A stretch of DNA of 64,000 nt, taken from Chryseobacterium indoltheticum. Its GTDB lineage: Bacteria > Bacteroidota > Bacteroidia > Flavobacteriales > Weeksellaceae. Below the pieces are notes generated by a model. It worked only from the letters and a program-made list of their open reading frames with translations, ran no database searches and had not been told where the DNA came from. The DNA lies in NCBI RefSeq assembly GCF_003815915.1, contig NZ_CP033929.1, forward strand, positions 806,001-870,000, read 5' to 3'. Below, one piece after another: positions 1 through 3,447 of the stretch (the stretch's first letter is position 1; each line of letters opens with the position of its first letter). Position numbers and translations under genes: made by a program.

Positions 1-461
1 AAATCTTCGGAGGATTGCTTCCCGAAAATAAACCCGGGATTTCTACCTTTTCAAATAAATATAAATACCGCCAGATGTTGGTGGAAAAAGATATTACAGT
101 TTACTCTTTCTGCGAACATCATTTTTTACCGATTATCGGAAGAGCGCATGTTGCCTATATTTCAAACGGTGATGTTATTGGCTTGTCGAAAATCAACAGA
201 ATTGTAGATTATTACGCAAAAAGACCGCAAGTTCAGGAAAGATTGACCATGCAGATTGTTGATGCGTTGAAAGATGCTTTGGGAACAAAAAATGTTGCCT
301 GTATTATCGATGCTAAACATCTTTGCGTAAATTGTAGAGGGATAAAAGATACAGCAAGTTCTACAATTACTGCAGAATTAAGCGGGATTTTTAGAACCAA
401 TCCTATTACAAGACAGGAGTTTCTGCATTATGTAGGAAGCCATGCAAAACTGGATTATTAA
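1..461 (+). CDS. folE: GTP cyclohydrolase I (FolE), 5' end outside window
   Basis: FolE opens and rearranges GTP to 7,8-dihydroneopterin triphosphate, the first step of tetrahydrofolate and pterin synthesis in the cytoplasm. The reading frame is open from base 3, giving I-F-G-G before the first possible internal start, so the gene begins upstream of the window and no start can be assigned. The visible C-terminal 153 codons hold the family signature: the zinc-site stretch SFCEHHFLP, the segment GLSKINRIVDYYAKRPQVQE, and the second cysteine in KHLCVNCRG. A cysteine-rich leader ORF begins 11 bp after the stop, so folE may be cotranscribed with cysS. Identification is secure; only the N-terminus is missing. 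Confidence 0.96.
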   Translation, partial: IFGGLLPENKPGISTFSNKYKYRQMLVEKDITVYSFCEHHFLPIIGRAHVAYISNGDVIGLSKINRIVDYYAKRPQVQERLTMQIVDALKDALGTKNVACIIDAKHLCVNCRGIKDTASSTITAELSGIFRTNPITRQEFLHYVGSHAKLDY

Positions 462-472
462 AATTTAAAATA

Positions 473-550
473 ATGATAAAATTTAAAAAAGTTTCAAATC
501 AGATTTTCATCACAACCATTATTTGTTGTTGCTGCGAATGCTGCTGTTAA
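473..550 (+). CDS. Cysteine-rich leader peptide upstream of cysS (25 aa)
   Basis: A short ORF starts at ATG 473 in the AT-rich context typical of starts in this group and stops at TAA 548-550. It encodes 25 residues: a basic N-terminus (MIKFKKVSNQ), a hydrophobic middle (IFITTII), then four Cys, one Glu and three Cys immediately before the stop. Seven of the last eight sense codons are Cys (TGT or TGC). The next gene, 67 bp downstream, is cysteinyl-tRNA synthetase. A run of codons for the amino acid charged by the downstream enzyme is the classic form of an attenuation leader peptide, and poly-Cys upstream ORFs that sense cysteine are known in mycobacteria. I see no intrinsic terminator between leader and cysS, only a weak A/T hairpin at about 549-565, so the mechanism is open: ribosome stalling, Rho or translational coupling. 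Regulatory function is inferred. Confidence 0.7.
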   Translation: MIKFKKVSNQIFITTIICCCCECCC

Positions 551-617
551 AAGATTATTTCTTTTGATATGTTTGAACAGTAAAATAAATTTTAAAATCA
601 TTAAATCAAATCAATAA

Positions 618-2084
618 ATGCAACTAAAAATATACAATTCGCTTACTGCGGAAAAAGAAATATTCAAACCAATTTTAGATGGAAATGTAGGAATGTACGT
701 TTGTGGGCCGACCGTTTACAGCAATGTACATTTAGGAAACGTACGAACTTTCCTTTCTTTCGATTTTATTTACAGAAGTTTGACCCATCTTGGGTACAAG
801 GTAAGATACGTAAGAAACATTACCGATGCAGGTCACCTTACCGATGATGGAGACGTCAATAATGACCGTTTTGTAAAGCAAACCCGTCTTGAAAAATTGG
901 AACCTATGGAAATTGTACAGAAATATACTGTAGATTTTCACAAGGTTTTAGATATGTTCAATTTATTACCTCCAAATATTGAACCCACAGCAACGGGTCA
1001 TATTGTAGAACAGATCGAATTAACTCAGAAATTAATCGATACAGGTTTTGCTTATGAAAGCAACGGTTCTGTTTATTTTGATGTTTTAGAATATAACGCA
1101 AGAGGTTTGAATTACGGCGAGCTTTCAAAACGTAATATCGAAGAGCTTTTTGCCAATACAAGAGATTTAGACGGTCAGGGTGAAAAGAAAAATCCTCAGG
1201 ATTTTGCATTGTGGAAAAAAGCTTCTCCTGCACATATCATGCGTTGGAATTCTCCTTGGGGCGAAGGTTTTCCGGGATGGCATCTTGAATGTACGGCGAT
1301 GAGCACTAAATATTTAGGTGAAACGTTTGATATTCACGGTGGTGGAATGGATTTGAAATTTCCACATCATGAATGTGAAATCGCCCAAGGAAAAGCTTGT
1401 AACGGAACTTCCCCGGTGAATTACTGGATGCATGCTAATATGTTGACAATGAATTCCCAACGTATGAGTAAGTCGACAGGAAATTACATTTTGCCGATGC
1501 AGTTGGTTTCTGGTGAGAATGATTTTTTTGAAAAATCTTTTCATCCGACGATTGTTCGTTTCTGCTTTTTACAGGCGCATTACAGAAGTGTTTTAGATAT
1601 TTCTAATGATGCGATGTTGGCGAGCGAAAAAGGCTTCACTCGATTAATGGAAGCATTAAAAATATTAAATTCAATTGCTCCGAATGATGAAAAACAATCT
1701 GGTTTTAGTCTGGAAGATTGGAAAACGAAATGTTATGATGCCTTAACAGATGACTTCAATTCGCCTGTTCTTATTGCTCATTTATTTGAAGCAGTGAAAT
1801 TTATTTTTGCTTTAAAAGATGAAAAGGAAACGATTTCTGCGAAAGATCTGGATGATTTAAAATCAACATTAAATGCTTTTGTTTTTGATGTTTTAGGATT
1901 GCAGAATATCGAAGAAAATAATAATGAAAAATTAGATCAGACCTTACAGGTTTTGATTGAATTGAGAAATCAGGCAAGAAAATCTAAAAACTTTGACCTT
2001 TCAGATCAGATCAGAGATAAGCTTCTGGCTGAAGGAATTGAGCTAAAAGATGGAAGAGAAGGTACAACCTATGTCCTGAATTGA
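618..2084 (+). CDS. cysS: Cysteine--tRNA ligase
   Basis: A class I aminoacyl-tRNA synthetase that charges tRNA-Cys. The 488-aa length is normal for bacterial CysRS. Visible motifs are the N-terminal zinc cysteine in MYVCGPTVY (Cys29), the HIGH-type motif HLGN (residues 38-41), further zinc ligands in WHLEC (about Cys225) and HHECE (about 250), and the KMSKS-type loop RMSKSTGN (about 282). The C-terminal part contains the helical anticodon-binding DALR-like region. It starts with ATG 618 after an A/T-rich leader. A Cys-rich 25-codon leader ORF lies just upstream and may tie expression to the supply of charged tRNA-Cys. A TAnnTTTG-like sequence at 568-575 could act as an internal promoter, but it has no -33 partner. 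Confidence 0.98.
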
Positions 2085-2101
2085 TTTAAAATAAATTTTA
2101 A

Positions 2102-2176
2102 TCTCCCGCAGATTACACCGATAATGCAGATTGATAATCAATATCATCTGCGATAATCCGTGAAATCTGCGGGATT
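2102..2176. repeat. Imperfect palindromic intergenic repeat
   Basis: The left arm, starting TCCCGCAGATTACACCGATA, and the right arm, ending ATCTGCGGGA, are complementary with a few mismatches over about 34 bp, which would give a long imperfect hairpin. It lies between cysS and the next gene and is followed by TTTTT, so it may also end cysS transcription. From general knowledge, CTGCGGGA/CAGATT-type palindromes are dispersed in Bacteroidota genomes. No second copy was recognised in this window. Confidence 0.75.
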
Positions 2177-2283
2177 TTTGATGGTGTTTTTTTATTTTAA
2201 TGAATAAGATTTTTTTTCAAAATTAAATTTAAAAATTGTTTAACTTAGTAAGGCTAAAACAATTACAAAATAAAAATTTACAC

Positions 2284-3447
2284 ATGAAAAAACATTTATT
2301 CCCTATTATCTTATTATTACTTGGAAATACAATCAGTGCACAGCAGGATTTTTTTGCGTTAGCAGGAAAGGATTCTCCAAGAATTGAGTTTAATGATTTC
2401 CGTTCGATGAATGCAGACGGAACTTCCGGTGAAAGTATCTTCGGAGTTTCTTCAGAGGCAAAAGTGGTTTCACAATCCAGAAAAACTGCAGTTACAGAAG
2501 ATAAAACTTCTTACAATCATGCTCAGTCGATGACTTTGGCAGCTTTAGCCTATGATTCTTCGGGTAATAATTTGGTGTACATGCCCATGTTTTCGTCTAA
2601 TATTTATGTTTTAAACCAAAAAACAAAAAAAATTACTTTAGTTGAAAATATAGTGGCGAGAGTTACATCGTGCGATATCAATTCGCATATTACAAGAATG
2701 GCAACCGGCTATGACGGAAATATTTATGCAATCAATAATGCAGGCACGCAGTTTATTCAAATCAGTAAAAAGAATAATCAATATGTTGTAAACGATCTTG
2801 GAATCATTAAAGATGATGCTTCGAACGGTAAAAATTCTTTTACAGCGATGGAAACTGGTTTTGGTGGCGACATGATCGCCGATGCAGATAATAATTTTTA
2901 CGTTTTTTCAGTGTCGGGAAATGTATTTAAAATTTCAACTAAAGAACTAAAGGCAAAATTTGTCGGAAAAATTACAGGTTTACCTGATGCGTATTCTGTA
3001 AATGGAGCCGCCGTAAATTCTAAAGGAAAAGTAGTGATTGCAAGTGCAAAAGGAGCAGCTTTGTATGAGTTAAACCTTAATAATCTGGAAGCAAAACAAC
3101 TTCCTGGTGAGCAGAATCTGCATATTTATGATTTGGCAAGTAAATATTTTGCGAACGATAGAATTTCTGCTGTAAATAGTTTAGCCAATGTTGATATTTA
3201 CCCAACGAAAGTTGATGAACAGACGATTACCGTGAATATAAATGACAAAGCTGTAAAAGGAAATATTAAAGTGAATATTTTTGATGTTTCCGGAAAATCG
3301 GTATTGAATACCAACTTGTCGGTAAAAGACGGAAATCTTAATCAACAGATTTATCTCAGAAATTTGGTAACCGGAACGTATGTGGTGAGTATCACAGGAG
3401 AATCGGGGAAAAGTTTATTATCAAAGAAAATTTTGATTACTAAGTAA
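2284..3447 (+). CDS. T9SS type A sorting domain-containing secreted protein
   Basis: A 387-aa exported protein. I chose ATG 2284 because it gives a clean signal peptide (MKKHLFPIILLLLGNTISAQ); an upstream in-frame ATG at 2236 adds 16 residues before it. The middle (about residues 70-290) has repeated short beta-strand patterns such as GNIYAINNAG and NNFYVFSVSGNVFKIS, suggestive of a beta-propeller-like fold, though I cannot assign a family. The last 80 or so residues form a type IX secretion C-terminal domain, with VNIFDVSGKSVL, LVTGTYVVSI and SKKILITK. Such domains direct proteins through the Por/Gld secretion machinery and are usually cleaved or anchored at the surface. The substrate or role is unknown. 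Confidence 0.85.
   Translation: MKKHLFPIILLLLGNTISAQQDFFALAGKDSPRIEFNDFRSMNADGTSGESIFGVSSEAKVVSQSRKTAVTEDKTSYNHAQSMTLAALAYDSSGNNLVYMPMFSSNIYVLNQKTKKITLVENIVARVTSCDINSHITRMATGYDGNIYAINNAGTQFIQISKKNNQYVVNDLGIIKDDASNGKNSFTAMETGFGGDMIADADNNFYVFSVSGNVFKISTKELKAKFVGKITGLPDAYSVNGAAVNSKGKVVIASAKGAALYELNLNNLEAKQLPGEQNLHIYDLASKYFANDRISAVNSLANVDIYPTKVDEQTITVNINDKAVKGNIKVNIFDVSGKSVLNTNLSVKDGNLNQQIYLRNLVTGTYVVSITGESGKSLLSKKILITK

Follow-up and report, generated by a model that had tools for sequence, protein, structure and literature searches.

A Cys-Cys leader peptide gene proposed to read tRNA-Cys charging upstream of cysS in Chryseobacterium and related genera

Does a 25-codon reading frame that ends in a run of cysteines, lying directly in front of the gene for cysteinyl-tRNA synthetase, report the supply of charged tRNA-Cys to that gene, and if so, which of its parts would do the sensing? 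The frame was noticed in a 64,000-nucleotide stretch of the Chryseobacterium indoltheticum genome (contig NZ_CP033929.1, positions 806,001 to 870,000 of the forward strand), referred to here as the window, whose own numbering is used throughout.

The leader frame and its neighborhood

The leader ORF (473..550, + strand) opens with ATG and encodes MIKFKKVSNQIFITTIICCCCECCC in 25 codons plus a stop, with Cys at seven of the last eight sense codons; its annotation is supported by conserved relatives and by the coding selection described below. It is separated by 11 nt (stop codon ending at 461, leader ATG at 473) from its upstream neighbor, the 3' part of an ORF cut by the window edge (3..461, +), and is followed by a 67-nt spacer (551..617, +) that is G-poor and A/U-rich, and then by the presumed regulated gene (618..2084, +). 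We take these two flanking ORFs to be folE and cysS (cysteinyl-tRNA synthetase), the latter from its reading frame and relatives; both names are carried over from the preliminary description of this DNA and from general knowledge of the genes. That description had placed a Cys-ended 25-codon ORF between folE and cysS with a gap of 67 bp, all of which was correct, and its statement that no intrinsic terminator follows the ORF was borne out by a scan of the window, which returned no site.

Two elements can be distinguished within the Cys run: the tandem Cys codons 18-19 (TGT TGT, 524..529, +), which are conserved and form the proposed stall site, and a poly-Cys tail of codons 20-25 (CCECCC, 530..547, +), which is lineage-specific and present in a minority of relatives. 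Folding predicts hairpin P1 (512..529, +), in which ACAAC at 512-516 (Thr14-Thr15) pairs with GUUGU at 525-529 (Cys18-Cys19), and hairpin P2 (547..567, +), in which UUAAAAGA pairs with UCUUUUGA across the leader stop codon, mainly in the poly-Cys lineage.

A search of the organism's own genome with the leader peptide returned a single match, the leader itself. The pattern TGYTGYTGYTGY matched 54 times in this genome, with overlapping matches counted, and among the 30 of these sites that were read the window's leader was the sole short ATG-started ORF ending in a Cys run. A short frame near 603,851 on the minus strand (L212) ends in CCCCYTTCC; GTG or TTG are the only starts available to it, a long open frame runs on the opposite strand, and L212 may be meaningless. 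A similar search with ATHATHTGYTGY gave 87 sites, 30 of which were read, and was uninformative. The -7 promoter consensus of Bacteroidota is TAnnTTTG, and TATGTTTG in the spacer (568-575) fits it; this site is not conserved, as the nearest relative (L002) has TATGTGAA there. Downstream of cysS, at 2096-2185, lies an inverted-repeat element (CCCGCAGATT...AATCTGCGGGATTTTT) with five more matches in the same genome besides itself, one being its own reverse complement and the rest partial; it looks like a terminator or a repeat family.

The genes upstream vary across relatives, while the leader and cysS remain paired. By a mechanical reading, 65 of 86 distinct contexts have a same-strand ORF of at least 80 codons whose end is no more than 25 nt from the leader ATG, and this ORF is mostly folE or a second gene. 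There is thus often little room for a promoter between the two, so the leader probably works inside a longer transcript. In many Chryseobacterium loci (L004, L005, L008 and others) the leader is preceded, usually by 2 nt, by a gene ending in DYVDHLQHHLKAI or similar, which may be DinB-like.

Conservation of the peptide and its linkage to cysS

A profile built from 20 peptides and run against 320 genomes of the family gave 211 matches, reduced to 208 by the removal of three weak ones (G255, G317 and G319; E 0.008-0.01, with no cysS within the ~3 kb fetched). The 208 genomes belong to six genera and are a lower bound, because the profile misses the divergent leaders held by G003 (L344) and probably G197 (L345); ten family genomes missed by the profile were inspected with CysS. 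Within the window's genus, 171 of 173 genomes matched. The two misses are G056, which has cysS without a leader just upstream (L338), and G157, in whose 93% complete genome no CysS was found.

All 72 leader loci fetched from among the 208 contained cysS by tblastn; the pattern placed the leader upstream of cysS and on its strand in 70 of them, and inspection did so in the remaining two, L154 and L200. A further 86 short stretches from the same set all carried a cysS-like start pattern (86/86), and locus checks cover these 72 and 86 of the 208 matching genomes. When named genomes were scanned with CysS instead, and the best 80 of at least 584 cysS loci were taken, the leader pattern was found at most 420 nt upstream of cysS in 27 of the 80. 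These 27 are all named Chryseobacterium or Epilithonimonas, and the other 53 come mostly from Flavobacteriaceae and other Weeksellaceae. Five loci named Chryseobacterium lack the leader (L025, L028, L029, L032 and L037), and the CysS tree puts them outside the clade to which the window belongs; this tree scores L154, L200, L344 and L345 as leaderless, although divergent leaders were present in them on inspection, and its change counts are therefore left aside. An order-level search of 395 genomes drawn from a larger group gave 53 matches and no convincing member outside the family, the three matches outside it having E values of 0.0016 to 0.009. Second copies of the peptide were sought in 18 chosen genomes, where the extra matches were weak (E values no better than 0.001) and no cysS accompanied the ones that were fetched.

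The spacer between leader and cysS is 33-75 nt long in 178 of 184 leaders. The longest spacers found with an intact core are those of L310 (110 nt), L121 (159 nt) and L197 (277 nt), which offer natural tests of whether distance matters. In Flavobacterium, the Flavo-1 RNA (RF01705) can replace the leader upstream of cysS in either orientation: it was detected at the Rfam threshold in three of 10 loci scanned, or three of the five Flavobacterium among them (L057:2703-2791, L061:2851-2940 and, in reverse, L080:2850-2927), and visual inspection picked out Flavo-1-like sequence at roughly a dozen further loci, including L068 and L072, which were scanned and fell below the threshold.

The leaders compared number 184, made up of 97 found by pattern, the window's own and the 86 stretches, with some genomes represented twice. 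They reduce to 151 distinct ORFs, 150 of which have at least 19 codons and yield 138 distinct 19-codon cores; L154, L200, L344, L345 and the 17-codon L036/L152 stand outside these cores. The selection pattern demanded F/Y-K/R-K/R and I/V-F/Y, and in the 86 stretches also CC or TII. Because leaders were picked by a profile and a pattern that demand some conserved residues, the conservation counts that follow are somewhat inflated.

The usual core reads M-x-x-F-K-K-x3-K/Q-I-F-x-T-T-I-I-C-C. Counting changes along a minimum spanning tree, pN/pS is 0.171 over codons 2-19 and 0.101 over codons 11-19, against values of 1.24 and 0.97 for the remaining two frames of this strand, which are broken by stops in 127 and 138 of the 138 cores. 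One antisense frame, interrupted by stops in 22 of 138 cores, also has a low pN/pS, of 0.31; the probable cause is that its third positions fall on the third positions of the true frame. Taken across these relatives, the leader ORF bears the mark of a translated frame and is more than a chance occurrence. Cys18 is found in 138 and Cys19 in 137 of the 138 distinct cores. The pair is also present in 26 of the 27 leaders from CysS-chosen loci, the least biased sample, and in 94 of the 97 leaders whose selection was not conditioned on CC or TII. Nearly as constant are I16 (138/138), T15 (137/138), at which silent changes are free, and I17 (135/138), together with I11 (138/138) and F12 (135/138), both of the latter partly demanded by the search pattern; position 13 varies among I, V, L and T.

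The sequence after codon 19 is free, being highly variable in length and composition: of 150 distinct ORFs, 19 have their stop codon right there and 18 add only G, and other tails read DRFLF, DRIIF and the like. At least three Cys follow codon 19 in 32 of the 150, and Cys makes up 158 of the 575 tail residues in the 146 distinct ORFs counted. Viewed against these relatives, the window's CCCCECCC run is best read as a lineage-specific elaboration of the Cys-Cys core. Some relatives depart from the core: L153 and L200 have Cys-Trp at codons 18-19, having lost the second Cys, a stop codon has removed both Cys in L036/L152, and L338 has lost the leader, so the leader is dispensable. L154, L200 and L344 lack F12, and L345, MIKLRKFSRRCFSYCCRELRIGNRCCRKLGFYHFNF, has two CC pairs and no TTII. 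L345 comes from a fragmented assembly of genus g9, and a long hairpin of -16.2 kcal/mol spans its whole ORF. The preliminary description had named an ORF that is absent, frameshifted or free of Cys codons in close relatives as grounds for abandoning the idea of a leader; checked on these points, the ORF passed.

A hairpin in the reading frame and candidate routes to cysS

In the core, the Thr14-Thr15 codons (ACN ACN) are complementary to the Cys18-Cys19 codons (TGT TGT), and Ile16-Ile17 form the loop. Cys18 is encoded by TGT in 137 of 138 cores, as compared to 87 of 146 Cys codons in the cysS genes of the same group. Codons 12-21 of 141 distinct segments fold to a mean of -7.68 kcal/mol, against -3.77 kcal/mol for recodings that keep the same peptides at background codon usage (z -17.6, 0 of 200 as low), and 30 spread representatives at least 9 nt apart gave z -7.9 (0 of 300). 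Control codons 2-11 were less folded than their recodings (-0.06 versus -0.31). These comparisons indicate that P1 is kept by selection at synonymous sites.

In most relatives P1 extends to codons 13 and 20. Position 13.2 (codon and position) pairs with 20.2 in 141 of 141 segments (T-G 80, T-A 54, C-G 7), although 29.5 of the 30 representatives would pair here even with independent columns. Position 13.3 pairs with 20.1 in 110 of 138, as compared to a mean of 67.6 and a maximum of 84 in 2000 shuffles, and the pair types C-G, A-T and T-A represent covariation between codons 13 and 20. Among slid controls for 13.3, the constant columns 18.1 and 19.1 gave 43 against 43.0, and 21.1 exceeded its shuffles, 43 against 33.1. 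Along the edges of the spanning tree, 13 double changes keep the 13.3-20.1 pair and three do not; six single changes keep it, and another 21 have an unformed pair on at least one side of the edge. P1 in the window itself is a short and weak example, with five pairs and a C-T mismatch at 13.3-20.1, and the leader region there is no more stably folded than shuffled sequence (z -0.12). Lineage consensus sequences fold below column shuffles in five lineages (z -4.2 to -8.0), and L200, L344 and L345 have a hairpin in another register or sequence. P2 is found at the stop codon in 36 of the 41 rows with at least two Cys after codon 19 (some genomes twice), and a candidate long-range pairing of the poly-Cys lineage, P0, appears in the consensus fold. 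Since Thr-Thr codons are complementary to Cys-Cys codons, some of the constraint on Cys could come from the stem and not from tRNA sensing.

Adjacency to cysS, a near-invariant Cys-Cys pair, a frame that appears to be translated and a stem lead us to consider it likely that this gene encodes a leader peptide acting in cis on cysS, with ribosome stalling as its means of sensing tRNA-Cys charging. Two features typical of attenuation leaders are present: a short ORF, translated by comparative evidence, upstream of a gene for the same amino acid, and conserved control codons for that amino acid (Cys18 and Cys19). A third, a mutually exclusive terminator or RBS-occluding hairpin, was not found. The proposal that a Cys-rich leader regulates cysS stands as the best explanation, with the qualification that the conserved sensor would be Cys-Cys at codons 18-19 together with the peptide and hairpin, and not the poly-Cys run on which the proposal had been built. 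When Cys-tRNA is short, the ribosome would halt with codon 18 or 19 in its A site and keep P1 open, and cysS output would rise; when Cys-tRNA is plentiful, the ribosome would read through and be released.

Several ways in which a halted ribosome could act on cysS were considered. Only 20 of 179 leader-to-cysS regions pass a loose terminator test, mostly in one lineage, where CAGA and U-rich sequence come after P1, so there is no common terminator, and intrinsic termination was rejected as a general output. The preliminary description had named Rho-dependent and translational mechanisms instead. Rho-dependent output is not supported by the sequence of the spacer, because it contains 11.7% C and 4.5% G and is mostly shorter than 80 nt. 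Initiation in Bacteroidota is largely independent of Shine-Dalgarno pairing. In modelling of 66 representatives, the mean energy needed to open the cysS start was 3.13 kcal/mol with no ribosome, 2.97 with a ribosome at codon 18, 2.85 at the stop and 2.62 at the leader start. A ribosome placed over codon 18 thus shifts the opening energy by an average of only -0.16 kcal/mol (lower in 14 of 66, higher in four of 66). Since a stalled ribosome barely alters the modelled access to the cysS start, RBS occlusion was rejected, and the translational route is not supported in this form. With intrinsic termination and occlusion of the cysS start disfavored, the candidate output steps left are pausing of RNA polymerase with polarity, decay of the mRNA or the delivery of ribosomes to cysS. 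A more detailed scheme, which we put forward tentatively and with some doubt, is that within an operon the stalled ribosome controls only the distal cysS, by an output that is neither intrinsic termination nor RBS occlusion; opening of the small hairpin could, for example, govern how RNA polymerase pauses or how the mRNA decays. In this scheme the nascent chain would reinforce the stall, and the poly-Cys tail would adjust its sensitivity.

Alternative readings and known leader systems

Plain attenuation leaders need control codons only, and the constancy of I16, of I17 and of T15, whose silent changes are free, as well as of I11 and F12 insofar as the pattern did not demand them, could instead mark a nascent-chain arrest peptide, in which I11, F12, T15, I16 and I17 act in the ribosome tunnel and arrest takes place at Cys-Cys, whether this pair also senses tRNA or not. 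We regard this as unlikely, given that T14, T15, C18 and C19 are also held by P1, that position 13 varies, that F12 is missing from L154, L200 and L344, and that L345 keeps its CC pairs without IF-x-TTII. The strong constraint at the protein level would also suit a small protein with a function in trans, whose position next to cysS is incidental. This is highly improbable for a peptide with no second copy found in its own genome, with cysS in 72 of 72 loci, with silent sites selected for a hairpin and with so variable a C-terminal tail.

The symmetry of ACAACA-ATTATT-TGTTGT as DNA raises the thought of an operator for a dimeric regulator, with the Cys codons incidental, yet paired positions co-change (C-G, A-T, T-A), unlike a fixed half-site, the hairpin persists in another register in L200 and L344, and the reading frame is under strong protein-level constraint, making this equally improbable. 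Very unlikely too is that leader translation only delivers ribosomes to cysS by reinitiation, with no sensing. Such a role has been proposed for leader genes across bacteria (PMC4833913), but a spacer of 33-75 nt in most leaders is far from the 11-14 bp peak given there for Bacteroidetes, the leaders with the longest spacers (L310, L121 and L197) keep their core intact, and Cys-Cys would be left unexplained.

As a leader that reads tRNA-Cys charging, the gene can be set beside several known systems. Like a T-box, it would sense tRNA charging upstream of a synthetase gene; T-boxes are RNA-only sensors without a leader peptide, and none was found at positions 1-3000 of the window with Rfam at E values up to 1. 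The trp and his attenuators carry their control codons in a leader peptide and within a stem, as here, but no alternative terminator hairpin was found for this leader. Poly-Cys leader peptides of mycobacterial cys operons are reportedly also treated in work by Canestrari from 2020. Cys-run leader peptides precede cysteine metabolism genes in Actinobacteria (PMC1262725, PMC4633059), and PMC1262725 describes them as lacking conserved terminators. The leaders of mycobacterial cys operons and of B. longum cbs resemble the present one in having a Cys run near the stop and no conserved terminator. They differ in that their targets are cysteine metabolism genes rather than cysS, in that the mycobacterial ones sit on leaderless mRNAs (PMC1262725, PMC4633059), and in that most forms here have two Cys codons only, within a hairpin. 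For Flavobacterium psychrophilum, amino-acid biosynthesis operons are reported to show strong signs of attenuation by leader peptides located upstream (PMC9723704), in a source whose main text is without cysS.

The closest published counterpart by target is the uORFC-8-2 motif (PMC8632094), with 145 examples in Rhodobacterales, found only upstream of cysS. Its tandem conserved Cys codons are usually at positions 14-15 with UGC dominating, the first stem holds these codons, and a second stem with a 3' U-run fits an intrinsic terminator. Going by this published description, the two share the cysS target, tandem Cys codons and a codon-bearing first stem. The leader here has its codons at positions 18-19 with UGU dominating, has no second stem with a 3' U-run and no common terminator, and lies in another phylum, between folE (or another gene) and cysS. 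By this analogy it is a putative terminator-less Bacteroidota variant of cysS leaders with tandem Cys codons. The preliminary description knew of no cysS case in Bacteroidota, and none was found in the literature searched, which mostly leaves out subscription journals, though the principle had already been described in Rhodobacterales (PMC8632094). Judging from this likeness, a hairpin enclosing tandem Cys codons may have arisen more than once. If the proposed reading is true, a very small unit (25 codons here), present in nearly all genomes of the window's genus, would report tRNA charging to a synthetase gene in a phylum in which no terminator was seen at these leaders, and its output step would be informative.
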